From positions 1-55,320 of the forward strand of contig NZ_AFPM01000275.1 of the NCBI RefSeq assembly GCF_000220565.1: DNA of 55,320 bases, read 5' to 3'. The position numbers were made by a program, and so were the translations under genes. A model generated the notes under the pieces. It was not told where the DNA came from, ran no database searches, and saw only the letters and a program-made list of their open reading frames with translations. This document shows positions 19,967 through 31,541 of this stretch, in pieces. Each line of letters begins with the position of its first letter. Position 1 is the first letter of the stretch. The DNA is from Oceanicola sp. S124 (lineage in GTDB: Bacteria > Pseudomonadota > Alphaproteobacteria > Rhodobacterales > Rhodobacteraceae).

Positions 19967-20575
19967 TTACAGCCCCTGCCCCGGCTTCACGTCCTTCAGT
20001 TCCATCGCCTTGGCCGGGTCGCGCCACATCTGGTGCAGCACGTTCTGGCGCTTGATGTCCTGGCGGTGGCGCAGGGTCAGCACGATGGCCCCGATCATCG
20101 CCACCAGCAGGACAAGGCCCGCCAGCTGGAAGACCAGGAAATACTGTTCATAGATCAGCAGGCCGAGGGCGGCGGTGTTCTGCACCCCCTCGGGCGCAAC
20201 GGCCAGGCGGGCGGCCTCGGCGGTCTCGGCCTCCGTCCACGAGCCATAGGCGAGGGCGAACTGCATCAGCAGCACGATCCCGATCAGCAGCGCCAGCGGC
20301 ATGTAGCGCGCCATTTCCGCCTTCAGCGAGGCGAAGTCGACATCCAGCATCATCACCACGAAAAGGAACAGCACCGCCACCGCGCCGACGTAGACGATGA
20401 TCAGCAGCATGGCCACGAACTCGGCCCCCAGTAGGACGAAGAGCCCCGCCGCCGAGAGGAAGGCCAGGATCAGCCAGAGCACCGAGTGCACCGGGTTGCG
20501 GCTGACGACGGTGAACAGACCGCCTGCCAGCAGGCAGAGGGCGAAGAGATAGAAGGAGAAGGCGGCGACGGTCAT
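19967..20575 (-). CDS. nuoJ: NADH-quinone oxidoreductase subunit J
   Basis: NuoJ is a membrane subunit with five helices at the base of the complex I peripheral arm. The 202-residue protein shows [40 protein letters not shown] and the conserved third-helix block with the pi-bulge ([20 protein letters not shown]). The C-terminal region is polar and a little longer than in E. coli. Its ATG overlaps the stop of the upstream CMD gene (ATGA). Confidence 0.96.
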
Positions 20576-20979
20576 GTCTCATCATCCTCGTGTTCGTCCA
20601 TGACCTCTTTCGCCAGCTGGGCGGCCTTGGTCATGGCGGGTATGCCTGCGAACATCGACATCTGTGCGATGGCCTCGGCGATTTCCTGTTTCGTCGCGCC
20701 CGCTTCCAGAAGGTGGCGGACGGTGATGCGCAGCTGGCTCTCGGCCTGTGCGCCCTGCATGGTCAGACCCGCGAGGGTCAGGAAGAGCCGGGTCTTGGCG
20801 TCCAGCCCCTCCTTGTTGAGGGTGTTGCCGAAGGCAAACTCCATCCACTCCTTGGGCATGGTCGGCCAGAGCTGTTCGAACCCCTTGGGGGTGAAGCTCT
20901 CCAGCGCGGGGTTCATGGACTTGGCCATCTCCTGCGCGTGCCGGATGAACATCTCGAAAGGATTGCCGCTGTCAGTCAT
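20572..20979 (-). CDS. Carboxymuconolactone decarboxylase-like protein without cysteines
   Basis: A 135-residue protein of the CMD/AhpD-like fold. The core block [19 protein letters not shown], followed by [15 protein letters not shown] and AGIPAMTKA, matches the family. The CxxC pair that gives AhpD its peroxidase activity is absent; there is no Cys at all, so a redox role is unlikely. A CMD-family gene here, between nuoI and nuoJ, is usual in Rhodobacterales. It overlaps nuoJ by 4 bases, and an AAAGGGAG ribosome site precedes the ATG. Its function in or near complex I is unknown. Confidence 0.85.
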
Positions 20980-24984: not shown

Positions 24985-25410
24985 TCACTTTTCTTTCAAG
25001 AGGGCGCCGATCTGGCTGTTCCGCGCGATCTCGGCCTTGCCGAGACTGCACAGATCCACCGGGTTCTCGGGGTCCAGTCCTTGGGATTTCACGTAGGTTT
25101 CGCCGCGGGCGCGCATCCGTGCCTTCGCTTCGGAAGAATTCACGTAGGCGTCGATCTCGTCCTTCGAATATCCGAGGGAGCGGGCGCGGGAGTTGAGGTC
25201 GTTCAGCAGCAGCAGCCCCTTGAGGTTGCGCGGCGCGATCCGCTCGCAGCGGTCGCTGATCTCGATCGCCAGCGCCACCGAGAAGAGCGGGCCGTCGATC
25301 TCGCGCACTTCGCTGAGCGGCGGCAGCGCCGCGGTATTGGCCCGGGCCGTGCCGGTCAGGGCCAGCGAGGCGGCGAGGAAGCTGGCGGAGATGAGGGTGG
25401 CGATACGCAT
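24985..25410 (-). CDS. DUF5333-like exported protein
   Basis: A 141-residue protein with a cleavable signal peptide (MRIATLISASFLAASLALTG, then TARANT). The mature part contains LPPLSEVREIDGPLFSVALA, GYSKDEIDAYVNSSEAKARM and the C-terminal CSLGKAEIARNSQIGALLK, a pattern I associate with DUF5333 of Rhodobacterales. The start at 25410 has AGGA upstream; longer frames lack a signal sequence at their N-terminus. The stop is 6 bases before nuoG. Function unknown; the product should be periplasmic. Confidence 0.75.
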   Translation of the reverse strand: MRIATLISASFLAASLALTGTARANTAALPPLSEVREIDGPLFSVALAIEISDRCERIAPRNLKGLLLLNDLNSRARSLGYSKDEIDAYVNSSEAKARMRARGETYVKSQGLDPENPVDLCSLGKAEIARNSQIGALLKEK

Positions 25411-25421
25411 GGGATGTCCTT

Positions 25422-25478
25422 TCTGCGCGGGAGGTTTCCCCCGCAGAGCGGCCATCACCCGGCTGCTATTCAATAGCA
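25422..25478 (-). other. Stem-loop and palindrome between DUF3291 and DUF5333 genes
   Basis: TCTGCGCGGG (25422-25431) pairs with 25438-25447 at 9 of 10 positions around a 6-base loop, directly upstream of the DUF5333 ribosome site. A second, AT-rich palindrome TGCTATT-C-AATAGCA lies at 25464-25478. They occupy the 104-base gap between the two genes. Confidence 0.55.
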
Positions 25479-25514
25479 ACCGTGCGCCATCGCCTCGGAT
25501 GAGAGCCGGAACGC

Positions 25515-26015
25515 TCATGCCGCCTCCCCGCCGCAGGCGTGTTTCTGCCAAAGCCCCTGCTCGCGCAGCCAGGCCCAGCTAAAGGCATGATCCGAGGCGC
25601 CGTTCGCGCGCAGGTGCTCCAACCGCTCCAGCGCCTCGTCCAGAGAAGGCTGGTGGCCTTCGGGCACCCACCACATGACGAAATGCATCTGTCCCAGCAC
25701 CTCGAACCACTCGGCCCGGCGCTCGTAGAACTGCCGGTGCACGGTGTTCCAGACGAAATGCTCCAGGCTGGGAAGGTCTTCCCAGACGGTGAGATTCGCC
25801 ACGAAGCGGGGATCCCCGCCGATCGCGTTCTCGGTGTTGCCGGTGCCGGGTTCCCCCGACCCCTCCATCATCCAGACGAAGCCGGGCATGCGCTTGCCCA
25901 GACCGTTCACACGGTCGAGCGCGCCCATGAACTCGGCCACGCGCGGGTCGTCCGTCTCGGCGACAAGGCGGCCCACGTTCAGCTCCGCCAGATGATATCC
26001 GGGGCGGGTCACCAT
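25515..26015 (-). CDS. DUF3291-like protein (antibiotic-monooxygenase-type fold)
   Basis: A cytoplasmic protein of 166 residues. It starts MVTRPGYHLAELNVGRL and contains DDPRVAEFMGALDRVNGLGK, PGFVWMMEG and MHFVMWWVPEGHQP, a layout I recognise as DUF3291, related to dimeric alpha/beta-barrel monooxygenases. No enzymatic residues are known. A GTG at 26024 would add three residues. The start overlaps the preceding lipoprotein stop by 7 bases, so it belongs to the nuo operon; a 104-base gap with hairpins follows. Confidence 0.75.
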   Translation of the reverse strand: MVTRPGYHLAELNVGRLVAETDDPRVAEFMGALDRVNGLGKRMPGFVWMMEGSGEPGTGNTENAIGGDPRFVANLTVWEDLPSLEHFVWNTVHRQFYERRAEWFEVLGQMHFVMWWVPEGHQPSLDEALERLEHLRANGASDHAFSWAWLREQGLWQKHACGGEAA

Positions 26016-26380
26016 CCGCGGCACACCCCGCTGAAGACCAGGTCACCGCCCGAGAACTGAAGCGCCTCATCCGGGGCATCCGGACCGTTCATCCAGTCGA
26101 TGCGGGACGAGCCGAAGCGCTCGATGCAGTGGTTGGCGGCCTCGTAGCGGCCCGCGTCACGGGCACCGGCGAGGCTCTTCGAGGCATCCCGCACGGTGAC
26201 GACGAAATTCGCCGGCGTGTCCTTCTCCGCCGCCAGGCTCATGCGGAAGTACTGGCCATCGAAGACCGGCCGGCTGCTCTTGCTCAGCGCCTGGGAACGG
26301 CTGCAGGCCGACAGGGCCAGCGCAGCGCAGAGGGCAAGGCCGATCACGCGAAGGGGGGTCTGGATCCGGGTCATCTGCAT
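26009..26380 (-). CDS. Putative lipoprotein after nuoF
   Basis: A 123-residue predicted lipoprotein. The N-terminus has a basic region, the hydrophobic segment VIGLALCAALALSAC with lipobox LSAC (Cys26), and a polar mature part with FDGQYFRMSLAAEKDTPANF and two Cys. It begins 1 base after the nuoF stop and overlaps the DUF3291 gene, so it is co-translated with complex I genes. Family not recognised. Confidence 0.7.
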   Translation of the reverse strand: MQMTRIQTPLRVIGLALCAALALSACSRSQALSKSSRPVFDGQYFRMSLAAEKDTPANFVVTVRDASKSLAGARDAGRYEAANHCIERFGSSRIDWMNGPDAPDEALQFSGGDLVFSGVCRGW

Positions 26381-26381
26381 C

Positions 26382-27683
26382 TCACTCCGCTGCGGTCAGG
26401 ATGGTGGTCGAGCGGCCGGTCTTCTGGCGCTTGATGCGGTCCTCGATCTCGTCGCGGAAGTGACGGATCAGACCCTGGATCGGCCAGGCGGCGGCATCGC
26501 CGAGCGCGCAGATGGTGTGGCCCTCGACCTGCTTGGTCACGTCCAGCAGCATGTCGATCTCTTCCGGCTCGGCCTGGCCGGTGACCAGGCGGTCCATGAC
26601 CCGCATCATCCAGCCCGTGCCTTCGCGGCAGGGGGTGCACTGGCCGCAGCTCTCGTGCTTGAAGAACTTCGACAGGCGCCAGACGGCCTTCACCACGTCC
26701 ACCGAGTTGTCCATGACGATCATGCAGCCGGTGCCGAAGCTGGACTGGTTCTGACGCATCCAGTCGAAATCGAAGATCGCGTCTTCCAGCTTGTCCTTGG
26801 GCAGCACCGGGCAGGAGGCGCCGCCGGGGATGATGGCCTTCAGATTGTCCCAGCCGCCGCGCACGCCGCCGCCGTGGTGCTCGATGATCTCGCGCACCGA
26901 GAGCGACATCTGCTCTTCGAAGACGCAGGGGTTGTTCACGTGGCCGGTCAGCGCCATCAGCTTGGTACCGGCGTTGTTCGGACGCCCGAACGAGCTGAAC
27001 CACTCGGGCCCACGACGCAGGATGGTCGGCACCACGGCGATGGATTCGACGTTGTTCACCGTGGTCGGGCAGCCGTAGAGGCCGGCACCGGCGGGGAACG
27101 GAGGCTTCATCCGGGGCATGCCCTTCTTGCCTTCCAGGCTTTCGATCAGCGCCGTCTCTTCGCCGCAGATGTAGGCCCCTGCCCCGTGGTGCAGGAAGAC
27201 GTCGAAAGAATAGCCGGACTTGCAGGCGTTCTTGCCGATCAGACCCGCATCATAGGCCTCGTCGATGGCGGCCTGCAGGGCCTCCTTCTCGCGGATGTAT
27301 TCGCCGCGGATGTAGATGTAGGCGGCAACCGCGTTCATCGCGAAACCGGCGATCAGGCAGCCCTCGACCAGCGTGTGCGGGTCGTGGCGCATGATCTCGC
27401 GGTCCTTGCAGGTCGCGGGTTCGGATTCATCGGCATTGACCACCAGGTAGGCGGGACGGCCGTCGCTTTCCTTCGGCATGAAGGACCACTTCAGGCCGGT
27501 CGGGAAGCCTGCGCCGCCCCGGCCGCGCAGCCCGCTGTCCTTCACCTGCTGGATGATCCAGTCGCGCCCGTTGGCAAGGATGCCTGCGGTGCCATCCCAA
27601 TGGCCACGAGCCTGCGCGCCTTTCAGCGTGCGGTCGTTCATGCCGTAGAGATTGGTAAAGATACGATCCTGATCCTTGAGCAT
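26382..27683 (-). CDS. nuoF: NADH-quinone oxidoreductase subunit F (NADH/FMN)
   Basis: NuoF binds NADH and FMN and holds cluster N3, the entry point for electrons. The 433-residue protein shows the NADH/FMN loop [35 protein letters not shown] and the 4Fe-4S ligands [15 protein letters not shown] with a later TICALGD Cys. Length fits the family. It starts 3 bases after the DUF5337 gene ends. Confidence 0.97.
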
Positions 27684-27686
27684 GTC

Positions 27687-27923
27687 TTACCCTTTGTCAT
27701 TCCGGCGCGCGCGCCAGATCTGCGCCACCACCACCAGCGCCCAGACGAAGGCGGCAATGGCGGCAAAATCGAAGAGGAAGACGAAACGCTCCGGCAGGCC
27801 AAGCTGGCCCCCGAGAACCTGGAGACCCAACCAGAGCACCATGGTCGCGGCGATCACCACCGCCACCATGCGCCCCTTGCGGGCCAGTTCCAGTTCCCTG
27901 GCTCTGTCTTCCACCATCTCCAT
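27687..27923 (-). CDS. DUF5337-like small membrane protein
   Basis: A 78-residue protein with two membrane helices, about VAVVIAATMVLWLGLQVLGG and FAAIAAFVWALVVVAQIW, and a basic C-terminus RARRNDKG. The pattern matches DUF5337 of Rhodobacterales. I chose the ATG at 27923, with GGAG 5 bases upstream; a GTG at 27929 would overlap the upstream stop by 4 bases. It lies between the HhH membrane protein and nuoF. Its size and place suggest a small complex I partner, but this is inference. Confidence 0.75.
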   Translation of the reverse strand: MEMVEDRARELELARKGRMVAVVIAATMVLWLGLQVLGGQLGLPERFVFLFDFAAIAAFVWALVVVAQIWRARRNDKG

Positions 27924-27925
27924 CC

Positions 27926-28585
27926 TCACTCCGCCCGTTCGGCGGCTTCGAGGTCCTGCGCCTGCGCGATCCAGCCATCCCGGCCGATCCGCCCGCGGGC
28001 GCCCTTCACGTTCTCTTCCACCCAGGCCACGTCGGCCTCGCTCCAGCGGGCGATCTGCGCGAAGCTGCGGATGCCCGCCTCTTCCAGCGCCTGGGCCAGT
28101 TTCGGCCCCACACCCTTCAACCGCTGCAGGTCATCTGCCGGACCGGAGGCCTGGGCGATGATCTCCTGAGCTGCGGGAGAGGCCACCGCAGAGGCCACTT
28201 CCGGCGCGGCTTCGGGGGCCTCCCCGGAAACGACGGCCTCGGGCAGAGCGGCCCCGGCCTTGGGGGTTTTCGGCTGCGGTGCCTCGGCGTTGCCGGACTC
28301 GGCCCCGTCGACCGGCGTCGCGGCCTGCGGCTGCATCTCACCGGCAGGCGCCGCCACCGCCTCGCGCGTTTCGCGACCCGAGGCCTGGACGGGGCCCTGC
28401 CCCGCCGCGCCCTCGCAGATGAAGCGGTTCAGCAGGATCACCAGCAGGCCACCGGCCACGAGGGCCACCAGCAGCGCGCCGAGGAAGCCAAACGGGCCGG
28501 TCAGCGCGATGAGCAGCACAAGCGCCAGGGCAGCGCCAAGCGCCAGCCCCACCGTCCTGCACAGATCATTGCTCATCCCGGCCAT
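27926..28585 (-). CDS. Membrane-anchored helix-hairpin-helix protein, paralogous to NuoE C-terminus
   Basis: A 219-residue protein. Residues about 10-55 form two membrane segments (VGLALGAALALVLLIALTG and a second ending GGLLVILLNRF), followed by an Ala/Pro/Glu-rich linker. The last 69 residues hold a helix-hairpin-helix-like module (DDLQRLKGVGPKLAQALEEA). That module matches the C-terminus of NuoE, the neighbouring gene, at 30 of 62 positions by my ungapped count. AAGGA lies 9 bases before the ATG. A related module occurs in other alphaproteobacterial proteins. It may tether something to the membrane, but its role is unknown. Confidence 0.75.
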   Translation of the reverse strand: MAGMSNDLCRTVGLALGAALALVLLIALTGPFGFLGALLVALVAGGLLVILLNRFICEGAAGQGPVQASGRETREAVAAPAGEMQPQAATPVDGAESGNAEAPQPKTPKAGAALPEAVVSGEAPEAAPEVASAVASPAAQEIIAQASGPADDLQRLKGVGPKLAQALEEAGIRSFAQIARWSEADVAWVEENVKGARGRIGRDGWIAQAQDLEAAERAE

Positions 28586-28597
28586 CGCCCTGTTTCC

Positions 28598-29779
28598 TTA
28601 CTTCTCGTCGTCGTAGACGCCGCCGTCCTTCACCCGCTTGGCAAAGTCGGTCTCTTCACCGGCAGCCAGCGCCCGCGCCTGGCCGACCCAGTCGTCGCGG
28701 CTGACACGGCCCTTGAAGCCCACCAGGTTCTGATCGGCCCAGGCAACCTGCGCAGCGCTCCAGGCGGCGATCTGGTCGAAGTGATAGACCCCGATGCCGT
28801 TCAGCACGCCTTCCAGCTTGGGGCCGACGCCGGAAATCTGCTTGAGGTTGTCGGCCTTGCCGTCGCGGGGGGCGTCCAGCGCCTCGGGCTTCTCGCCCGC
28901 GCCCGCAGCTTCCACATCGGCGGCAGAGACCGCCGGCGCGGCGGCCTCGGGCTTGCCCGTGGGCGTCGCCTCGGCTTCCTGCTTGGTGGCACCGGCCTTC
29001 GAGACCGGGGTGTCGGCGGCGGGTTTCGGTTCCTTCTTGACCACCGGCTTGGTGGCCGGGCCTTCCGGCTTCTGGTCGCGCCAGGGGGTGAGCAGCGGCA
29101 CTTCGGTGCCGTCGATGCGCTTGATCCCGTCGCCGATCTCGACCGCGCGGGCCACCGAGGCGTTGTACTGGGTGCGGCCGCTTTCCCATTCGGTCAGCGC
29201 CACCAGACCGGCCAGCGGTTCCGAAGAGAACCGGCCGTTCTGCGGACCCGGCACCGGCACCTCGCCAGCGGCCAGCCTGTCGAGCAGGTCGCCCAGCTTC
29301 TCGGCGGTCAGGTCCTCGTAGTAGTCCTTGCCGATCTGGGCCATGGGCGCATTGGCGCAGGCGCCGAGGCACTCGACCTCTTCCCAGGAGAACTTGCCGT
29401 CCGCCGACAGCTCATGCGGCTTCGGGTTGATCTTGTCCTTGCAGACCGAGATCAGGTCCTCGGCGCCGCAGATCATGCAGGTCGTGGTGCCACAGATCTG
29501 GATATGCGCGACCGAGCCGACCGGCTGCAGCTGGAACATGAAATAGAAGGTCGCCACCTCGAGCACGCGGATCGAGGCCATGTCCAGCATGTCCGCCACG
29601 TATTCGATGGCGGGCTTGCTGAGCCAGCCTTCCTGTTCCTGGGCCCGCCACAGCAGCGGGATCACCGCCGAAGCCTGACGGCCCTCGGGGTACTTCGAGA
29701 TCTGGCCCTCGGCCCACTTCAGGTTCGCCTCGGTGAAGGCGAAGCTTTCGGGTTGTTCTTGGTGCAGGCGTCTCAGCAT
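28598..29779 (-). CDS. nuoE: NADH-quinone oxidoreductase subunit E with long C-terminal extension
   Basis: NuoE carries the 2Fe-2S cluster N1a next to NuoF. The thioredoxin-like domain (about residues 1-170) has the ligands [13 protein letters not shown] and [10 protein letters not shown]. The total of 393 residues is far longer than E. coli NuoE (166). The extra part is a low-complexity Ala/Lys/Pro/Glu linker and, from residue 310, a helix-hairpin-helix-like module ([18 protein letters not shown]) shared with the next gene. The frame is intact throughout. Confidence 0.95.
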
Positions 29780-29881: not shown

Positions 29882-30166
29882 TCAGGCGGCACAGTCTCCG
29901 ACCACGAGCTGGACCGCGCCATCCGGCAGCGAGACCGCTTCGCCCGTGGCGATCTTGTATTGCGCCATCTCGACGGCCTGCTCGCGGTTCAGCCCGGTCT
30001 GCAGCTCGACCGGCAGGTAGTCCCGCTCGGTGCGCAGCACGCAGCCGACCGAGGCGACGGCATCGTTGAAATTGTCGGCGGCGCCCGCCGGCATGTTCTC
30101 GGGCATCGACATGGCGCAGCCGGCCAGGGCCAGGGCGGCGATCGGCAGAAGGTTCCGCAGCGCCAT
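29882..30166 (-). CDS. Small putative lipoprotein between nuoD and nuoE
   Basis: A 94-residue predicted lipoprotein: MALRNLLPIAALALAGCAMS has lipobox LAGC with Cys17. The mature part contains DNFNDAVASVGCVLRTERDY and LNREQAVEMAQYKIATGEAV, with three further Cys in all after the lipobox Cys including the C-terminal DCAA. The ATG at 30166 shares its A with the stop of the preceding 53-residue membrane gene (TGATG). A longer frame reaching 30538 is antisense-like within nuoD and is not used. Function unknown. Confidence 0.7.
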   Translation of the reverse strand: MALRNLLPIAALALAGCAMSMPENMPAGAADNFNDAVASVGCVLRTERDYLPVELQTGLNREQAVEMAQYKIATGEAVSLPDGAVQLVVGDCAA

Positions 30167-30327
30167 CACAGGTACCCCCGCGCAATATCCATCAGCACGG
30201 CCACGGCAGCGCCGATCACGGCCCCGACCACAAGCCGCGAGCTGCCCCTTGCGCCCAGCACCGCCAGCACGCCGCAGACCGCGCCGACCAGCAGCTGCCA
30301 GAGCGAAATGGTCACTGAGCCCAGCAT
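30166..30327 (-). CDS. 53-residue two-helix membrane protein after nuoD
   Basis: A very small gene. It starts [20 protein letters not shown] and has two hydrophobic segments, LWQLLVGAVCGVLAVLGA and LVVGAVIGAAVAVLMDI, separated by the basic turn RGSSR. The ATG shares one base with the nuoD stop, and its own stop shares one base with the next ATG; both junctions read TGATG, a pattern of translational coupling. It falls below common gene-caller length limits. The arrangement and codon quality support a real gene, but no family is recognised. Confidence 0.7.
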   Translation of the reverse strand: MLGSVTISLWQLLVGAVCGVLAVLGARGSSRLVVGAVIGAAVAVLMDIARGYL

Positions 30328-31541
30328 CACCGGTCGACCTCGCCGAAGACGATGTCCATGGTGCCGATGATGGCCGCGACATCCGCCAGCTGGTGGCCCG
30401 ATGCGACGTGATCCATCGCCTGCAGGTGCAGGAAGCCCGGCGCGCGCAGCTTGGCGCGGTAGGGCTTGTTGGTGCCATCGGCCACCAGGTAGACGCCGAA
30501 TTCGCCCTTGGGTGCCTCGACGGCGGCATAGACCTCACCCGCCGGGACGTGGAAGCCCTCGGTGTAGAGCTTGAAGTGGTGGATGAGCGCCTCCATCGAG
30601 GTCTTCATCTCACCGCGCTTGGGCGGGGTCAGCTTGCCGCGCGCCAGCACGTCGCCGGGCGTCTCGCGCAGCTTGACGATGGCCTGGCGCATGATCTTCA
30701 CGCTCTCGCGCATCTCGGCCATGCGGCAGAGGTAGCGGTCGTAGCAGTCGCCGTTCTTGCCGACGGGGATCTTGAAATCGAACTCGTCGTAGCATTCGTA
30801 GGGCTGCGCACGACGCAGGTCCCAGGGCAGGCCCGAGCCGCGCACCATGACGCCCGAGAAGCCCCAGTCGAGGATCTCTTGCTCGGTCACCACGCCGATG
30901 TCGACGTTGCGCTGCTTGAAGATCCGGTTCTCAGTCAGCAGGCTGTCGATGTCGTCGAGCTTGGCGGGGAATTCGATCGCCCATTCCTCGATGTCGTCGA
31001 TCAGCTTGTCGGTCAGGTCCTGGTGGACGCCGCCGGGCCGGAAGTAGGCGGCGTGGAAGCGCGCGCCCGAGGCCCGTTCGTAGAAGATGCACAGGTCTTC
31101 ACGCGGCTCGAAGCCCCAGAGCGGCGGGGTCAGCGCGCCGACGTCCATCGCCTGGGTCGTCACGTTCAGCAGGTGGTTCAGGATCCGCCCGATCTCGCAG
31201 AACAGGACACGGATCAGCGAGGCCCGGCGCGGGATCACGGTGCCGGTCAGCTTCTCGATGGCGAGGCACCAGGCATGTTCCTGGTTCATCGGCGCCACGT
31301 AATCCAGCCGGTCCATGTAGGGCAGGTTCTGGAGGTAGGTGCGGCTTTCCATCAGCTTCTCGGTGCCGCGGTGCAGCAGGCCGATGTGCGGATCGCAACG
31401 CTCGACGATCTCGCCGTCAAGCTCCAGCACGAGGCGCAGCACGCCGTGTGCCGCCGGGTGCTGGGGCCCGAAGTTGATGTTGAAGTTGCGGATCTGCTGT
31501 TCGCCCGTCTGAGCGTCGTCAAAACCCTTGGAGCCGTCCAT
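30327..31541 (-). CDS. nuoD: NADH-quinone oxidoreductase subunit D
   Basis: NuoD is the 49-kDa-type subunit that helps form the quinone-binding site. Conserved blocks are [51 protein letters not shown]-like sequence and the C-terminal DIVFGEVDR. Length is 404 residues from the ATG at 31541, which overlaps the nuoC stop as TGATG; a GTG one codon upstream is possible. The 53-residue membrane gene starts on its stop codon. Confidence 0.97.

Follow-up and report, generated by a model that had tools for sequence, protein, structure and literature searches.

The window analysed here, that is, the whole 55,320-nucleotide stretch of contig NZ_AFPM01000275.1 from Oceanicola sp. S124, carries a nuo cluster on its minus strand, recognised from the list of open reading frames together with Pfam profiles, in which the gene order is nuoE, P0002, a DUF5337 gene and nuoF. 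The nuoE gene (28598..29779) encodes a protein of 393 aa made up of a 2Fe-2S thioredoxin-like core (PF01257, E 4.6e-54), a linker and a C-terminal module, and 12 bases past its end begins P0002 (27926..28585), encoding a protein of 219 aa with a predicted membrane hairpin and a C-terminal module of its own. The end of P0002 shares 4 bases with the gene for a small DUF5337 protein (27687..27929; PF17272, E 1.8e-34), followed by the nuoF open reading frame (26382..27683), which was taken as the downstream limit of the interval, just as nuoF homologues close it in the regions fetched from other genomes.

Further small genes are found elsewhere in this cluster on the same strand. Two lie between nuoD and nuoE, one lipoprotein-like (29882-30163) and without a match in the Pfam search, the other short and hydrophobic (about 30170-30330), and the gap between nuoF and nuoG holds three accessory genes (24985-25551, 25515-26024 and 26009-26380), consisting of DUF5333, DUF3291 and a lipoprotein-like open reading frame with no Pfam match. 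A carboxymuconolactone decarboxylase-family gene (20572-20979) adjoins the chain 6 (nuoJ-type) gene.

In complex I, NuoE is part of the peripheral arm. The protein encoded in the window is an ordinary member of the long-form subunit E family, with no notable difference from it (residues 1-385 of 393 score 594 bits with NCBIfam PRK12373, for which the cut-off is 514). A solved NuoE (8qby_E, 239 aa) aligns to its residues 1-234 only; beyond these come a low-complexity linker (about residues 235-308; 28856..29077) and the module (residues 309-379; 28643..28855), confirming from the sequence the linker described in the initial annotation. The arrangement proposed there for P0002, a module following two membrane helices, is also what AF2 predicts: helices 5-29 and 33-61 form a hairpin (residues 5-61; 28403..28573) bearing a Cys9/Cys57 pair, a putative disulfide with a spacing of 48 (28415..28561), after which a low-complexity linker (residues 62-146; 28148..28402), modelled with low confidence (pLDDT below 50 for 59-146), leads to the module (residues 150-217, or 147-219 in the AF2 model; 27935..28138).

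The resemblance between the two modules is real. Aligned without gaps, NuoE 307-368 and P0002 148-209 are identical at 31 of 62 positions (the initial annotation had counted 30), against a mean of 14.9 and a maximum of 21 identities when P0002 was shuffled 300 times and the best offset taken each time, and BLASTP finds 34 of 73 residues identical across the roughly 70-residue modules (55 bits, E 2e-13). The aligned stretch had been described as the last residues of both proteins, and while the match itself holds, NuoE extends about 20 residues further; this tail, with the consensus GGETEF..., forms part of the module in the majority of the relatives examined but is absent from P0002. In the same way, the homology behind the term "duplicated" stands but a duplication with two members does not, since L21 of the window genome and various proteins elsewhere carry the same domain. 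Nor do the two modules group with different outside families, since mean identity between the NuoE and protein-O classes (0.659) is close to that within each of them (0.676 and 0.654).

Judged from sequence and predicted fold, the modules of NuoE and P0002 are copies of a known domain, the helix-hairpin-helix (HhH) domain. The P0002 module exceeds the cut-off of HHH_5 (PF14520; 32.5 bits against 27) whereas the NuoE module gave no match to it up to E 1 in the same Pfam search, and the latter is therefore assigned to the HhH family because it is homologous to the former. The NCBIfam models for long NuoE, L21, S2 and the phasin PhaH match both modules. AF2 models, built from 4 and 6 aligned rows, predict the same HhH-like fold with an identical helix pattern, P0002 helices 161-169, 175-179 and 183-192 corresponding in the alignment to helices 22-30, 36-40 and 44-53 of the NuoE module, though the NuoE model (mean pLDDT 68.7) is less certain than that of P0002 (83-91 over residues 147-219). 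Searching solved structures with the P0002 model returned the HhH domain of Pol theta (Z 8.5, 68 residues, rmsd 2.4), the N-terminal domain of RadA (Z 8.2, 61 residues, rmsd 3.0) and NusA AR2, from a structure in which it is bound to the protein SuhB (Z 7.9), values which in a small helical domain may reflect a common arrangement only and are not strong alone; matches of the NuoE module were weaker, NusA being the highest (Z 7.1), and with Foldseek neither module had a match at E 0.001 or better. HHH_5 and the domains of RadA, Pol theta and NusA AR2 have the fold and the GVGPKL hairpin in common with the modules, but are distant from them and not closely related in sequence.

P0002 as a whole matches protein-O, a new subunit of the RC-LH1 complex of Dinoroseobacter shibae (PDB 8YY9, chain O; PMC12079452), over residues 9-212 of its 219 (phmmer, 8yy9_O, E 6.2e-20), and over residues 40-212 it matches 9wqv_a (2.7e-21), a chain of an entry which includes a reaction centre M chain, so that a protein-O homologue is present in a second reaction-centre structure. 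According to the accessible part of the D. shibae paper (PMC12079452), protein-O was traced as two membrane helices (residues 8-59) with a Cys10-Cys59 disulfide on the cytoplasmic side, its C-terminal domain being flexible and invisible in the map, and its gene sits between nuoE and nuoF, which is also the place of P0002. The same text already notes, for D. shibae, that the C-terminal domain resembles the C-termini of NuoE proteins, proposes that protein-O acts in assembly, as protein-U does, and contributes to an internal quinone path, and leaves both the function and the native or acquired origin of the gene open. A literature search with most subscription papers outside its range returned nothing beyond that paper on protein-O with RC-LH1 and NADH-quinone oxidoreductase, and no paper on HhH in NuoE, on a C-terminal extension of alphaproteobacterial NuoE, on the 9wqv entry, on a 41 kd protein of ubiquinone oxidoreductase or on URFs of the R. 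capsulatus nuo operon.

By its sequence and gene place, P0002 is thus the positional orthologue of protein-O. Both have the predicted or traced two-helix hairpin, the Cys pair (spacing 49 in protein-O, 48 in P0002), the long linker and the C-terminal HhH module, the tail of which has been lost in P0002. Protein-O is an RC-LH1 subunit, whereas no PF00124 (pufLM) match was found in the window genome (G000), which is 91.7% complete, and such a role is therefore inapplicable to P0002 unless these genes were missed.

The occurrence of this gene was followed in a family set of 295 genomes representing 294 genera, 121 of them with pufLM and 285 in which a NuoE core was detected at E 1e-60 or lower. 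From these 285, 160 nuoE-nuoF regions were taken: 33 of the 36 open NuoE frames under about 305 aa (G022, G102 and G156 were left out because of contig ends), 7 unusually long ones and 120 in roughly list order. Short NuoE was deliberately oversampled and the sample is not random, so the prevalence in the family can not be read from it. Two regions running into contig ends (L083 and L186) were dropped, leaving 158.

A module-bearing hairpin gene was present in 96 of the 158 intervals, comprising 42 of the 60 with pufLM and 54 of the 98 without, and its being common also outside the phototrophs indicates that the respiratory operon is its home. This suggests that protein-O was borrowed for the photosynthetic complex from a respiratory gene cluster, i.e., that a gene of a respiratory operon was reused in photosynthesis, which bears on the origin left open in the accessible text of the D. 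shibae paper, and it also means that proteins of the protein-O type can be studied in easily grown non-phototrophic relatives. Evidence for an additional, particular link of the gene to photosynthesis is mixed: module-bearing hairpins were present/absent in 42/18 genomes with pufLM against 54/44 without (p 0.067), in 32/4 against 49/33 when only genomes with the NuoE module were counted (p 0.002), and in 44/16 against 64/34, not significant, when module-less hairpins were included (p 0.38). PufX was found in 69 of the 295 genomes, and two phototrophs for which the searches gave no NuoE module and no hairpin gene (L073 and L074, from G091 and G051) do have PufX, so that RC-LH1 there may use another filler subunit.

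In a further 12 of the 158 intervals the hairpin gene had no module, several of these retaining the Cys pair, and the hairpin therefore probably has a role of its own. It may even be the functional part of the protein, serving complex I or another quinone-linked membrane complex as a subunit for assembly or for a quinone channel and reused in RC-LH1, with the module as an accessory, a reading we regard as unlikely. Besides the module-less genes, it would agree with the spacing of 46-50 seen in all 64 of the 97 hairpin N-termini that carry a Cys pair and with the assembly and quinone-path roles proposed in the accessible text on protein-O (PMC12079452). It leaves unexplained, however, why NuoE has the module in common, and 33 of the 97 N-termini lack the pair found in P0002. 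We also know of no such hairpin subunit in bacterial complex I structures. The Cys pair was considered as a feature tied to phototrophy as well, which was rejected given its presence in 23 of 42 hairpins with pufLM and 40 of 54 without.

The module of NuoE was missing in 40 of the 158 sampled genomes, short NuoE being oversampled, which indicates that complex I can do without it. Where it is present, the hairpin gene is more often present too, either counting any hairpin gene (present/absent 90/28 with the NuoE module against 18/22 without, p 4e-4) or module-bearing ones (81/37 against 15/25, Fisher p 7e-4). Such figures would be expected if the two modules bound each other or one protein partner, with the hairpin docking complex I and, in phototrophs, linking it to RC-LH1, an alternative that we consider possible but rather doubtful. 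In genomes that have the hairpin, its module is independent of that of NuoE (81/9 against 15/3, p 0.42), which counts against direct docking and also against the suggestion in the initial annotation that the module pair could bring NuoE and the membrane together. A tree-aware test gave LR 15.9 for NuoE module and module-bearing hairpin, but the control pair, pufLM and NuoE module, gave LR 15.8, making the signal unspecific; co-loss as proof of joint function was accordingly rejected, and the co-occurrence is weak evidence of a functional pair.

Direct docking would also account for the resemblance of the modules within genomes. Mean identity between NuoE and protein-O modules of the same genome is 0.704, a value reached in 0 of 20,000 permutations, against 0.659 between the classes overall, and the identity to a module's own partner exceeds that to the five nearest genera, ranked by NuoE core, by 0.040 (58 of 81 positive, p 8e-5; 56 of 81, p 1e-4, in a rerun). 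The excess was +0.033 after removal of the five most similar pairs (p 2e-4) and +0.045 against the nearest genus only (p 5e-5). A mirror-type correlation of the two modules, with the NuoE core controlled for, gave a partial r of 0.198 (mean 0, sd 0.067 and maximum 0.215 in permutations); it contributes little beyond the paired test and is not used here.

Gene conversion alone, on the other hand, yields within-genome resemblance, and one clear tract was found. In G103 (L146) about 300 nt are shared between nuoE and the hairpin gene with 3 mismatches and an abrupt left edge, spanning the module together with the final portion of the linker, and codons are identical at 98% of the shared residues, where 53% would be expected. 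When the 81 genomes are taken together, codon sharing is only slightly above expectation (0.573 against 0.521), with an excess of more than 0.2 in five of them, so that recent conversion appears to be occasional. The pair in the window, 49% identical, has drifted apart, since its NuoE module is on average 65% identical to the other protein-O modules. No single duplication date is meaningful where conversion occurs, and the timing by phylogeny suggested in the initial annotation was dropped: the 72-column alignment of modules gives a tree with mixed classes, to which 81 genomes contribute 162 modules. The nearest tip is the module's own partner in 19 cases, a member of the same class in 102 and a member of the other class from another genome in 41. 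A class signal is nevertheless present, with 38 Fitch changes against a mean of 54 and a minimum of 44 for shuffled labels.

It is very improbable that the module lacks any specific role and is a sequence that spreads, recombination copying it from one neighbour to another. The conversion tract in G103, the several unrelated carriers and the patchy absence would all fit such an origin, but residues are strongly conserved over many genera, with nearly the same consensus in both classes, and the module persists on a ribosomal protein such as L21.

A search of the window genome with the P0002 module, up to E 1, gave seven places, of which P0002, NuoE and L21 are clear and four are weak (E 0.017-0.49), one of these being a DNA polymerase IV-like open reading frame by sequence reading. 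In the class the module was found in 19 of 190 genomes, 16 of them beyond the family of the window, and the carriers among the 30 loci returned (L200-L229) were recognised by eye as NuoE, L21, S2 and membrane-anchored proteins, with NCBIfam confirming three L21 and one S2. The L21 (PRK12278) and S2 (PRK12311) proteins with this C-terminal HhH extension belong to the ribosome, unlike NuoE and P0002. The presence of the tag on L21, S2 and phasins points to a ligand more general than direct docking would provide.

One homologue with a reported ligand is the phasin PhaH of Caulobacter crescentus (NF045508), which has a homologous C-terminal HhH module after a linker but is a granule-binding protein. 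According to the accessible part of a review, its N-terminus binds granules, its HhH domain attaches to DNA in a non-specific manner, and granules become disorganised when phaH is deleted; among the carriers, DNA binding is reported in that text for PhaH alone. The PhasinPhaH profile matches both NuoE (P0001, 6.4e-18) and P0002 (1.1e-18), in the C-terminal part only and at 66-68 bits against the full-length cut-off of 250, so that neither is a PhaH; none of the 190 class genomes had a PhaH over the family cut-off, while the Caulobacter control does match.

Within the modules, basic residues are conserved in the HhH hairpin and after it. More than 90% of both classes have a basic residue at K5, K49, R51 and R54 (alignment numbering), and at K8 and K13, which belong to the HhH hairpin, lysine is the most frequent residue (70-90%). 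Conserved acidic positions occur beside these, which favours docking of the modules, and most modules are acidic as a whole (the median pI is 4.97 in NuoE and 5.14 in protein-O; the pair in the window has a net charge of 0 and -1, and the L21 module one of -4), which is unusual for a DNA binder and counts against the nucleic-acid reading. The presence of NusA AR2, with its partner SuhB, among the fold neighbours likewise indicates that this fold class includes protein binders, which speaks for docking and against nucleic acid. Because of the homology to PhaH and the conserved basic residues, a nucleic-acid tether is nonetheless preferred, with modest confidence, over direct docking of the modules.

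The reading we tentatively favour, its probability falling somewhat short of one half, is that P0002 is a protein-O counterpart whose HhH module tethers it to a ligand common to several carriers, nucleic acid being the likeliest. NuoE and P0002 each bear a copy of a single mobile HhH tag of the Alphaproteobacteria at the end of a long linker and, as the ends of the protein-O hairpin are on the cytoplasmic side in the accessible description (PMC12079452), the tag of P0002 should reach into the cytoplasm, like that of NuoE. It may serve as a flexible tether joining large assemblies to one ligand, namely complex I through NuoE, the hairpin protein with its membrane partner, and ribosomes through L21, the ligand being most probably nucleoid nucleic acid, in line with what is reported for the PhaH HhH domain. 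The copies on NuoE and on the hairpin protein would be kept alike by occasional gene conversion together with shared constraint. Of the roles suggested in the initial annotation, a common ligand of the two modules is thus supported as a possibility, and binding of nucleic acid has the homology to the PhaH domain as its one direct support.

If the tag is such a tether, complex I and membrane complexes would be placed at the nucleoid. To our knowledge, such an organisation of respiratory complexes has not been described so far. A wider version, which we regard as speculative and on the whole improbable, is that the tag on NuoE, on the RC-LH1 hairpin and on L21 and S2 ties respiration, photosynthesis and translation in Rhodobacteraceae and their relatives to a common scaffold, either the nucleoid or one hub protein, with protein-O recruited from the respiratory system.

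A further gene with the module was also seen in 12 of the 158 nuoE-nuoF intervals (L048, L130, L139, L145, L152, L153, L170, L172, L178, L184, L189 and L195). The N-termini of several of its products are phasin-like by sequence reading, and a phasin carrying the HhH module is possibly encoded inside the nuo operon at these loci.
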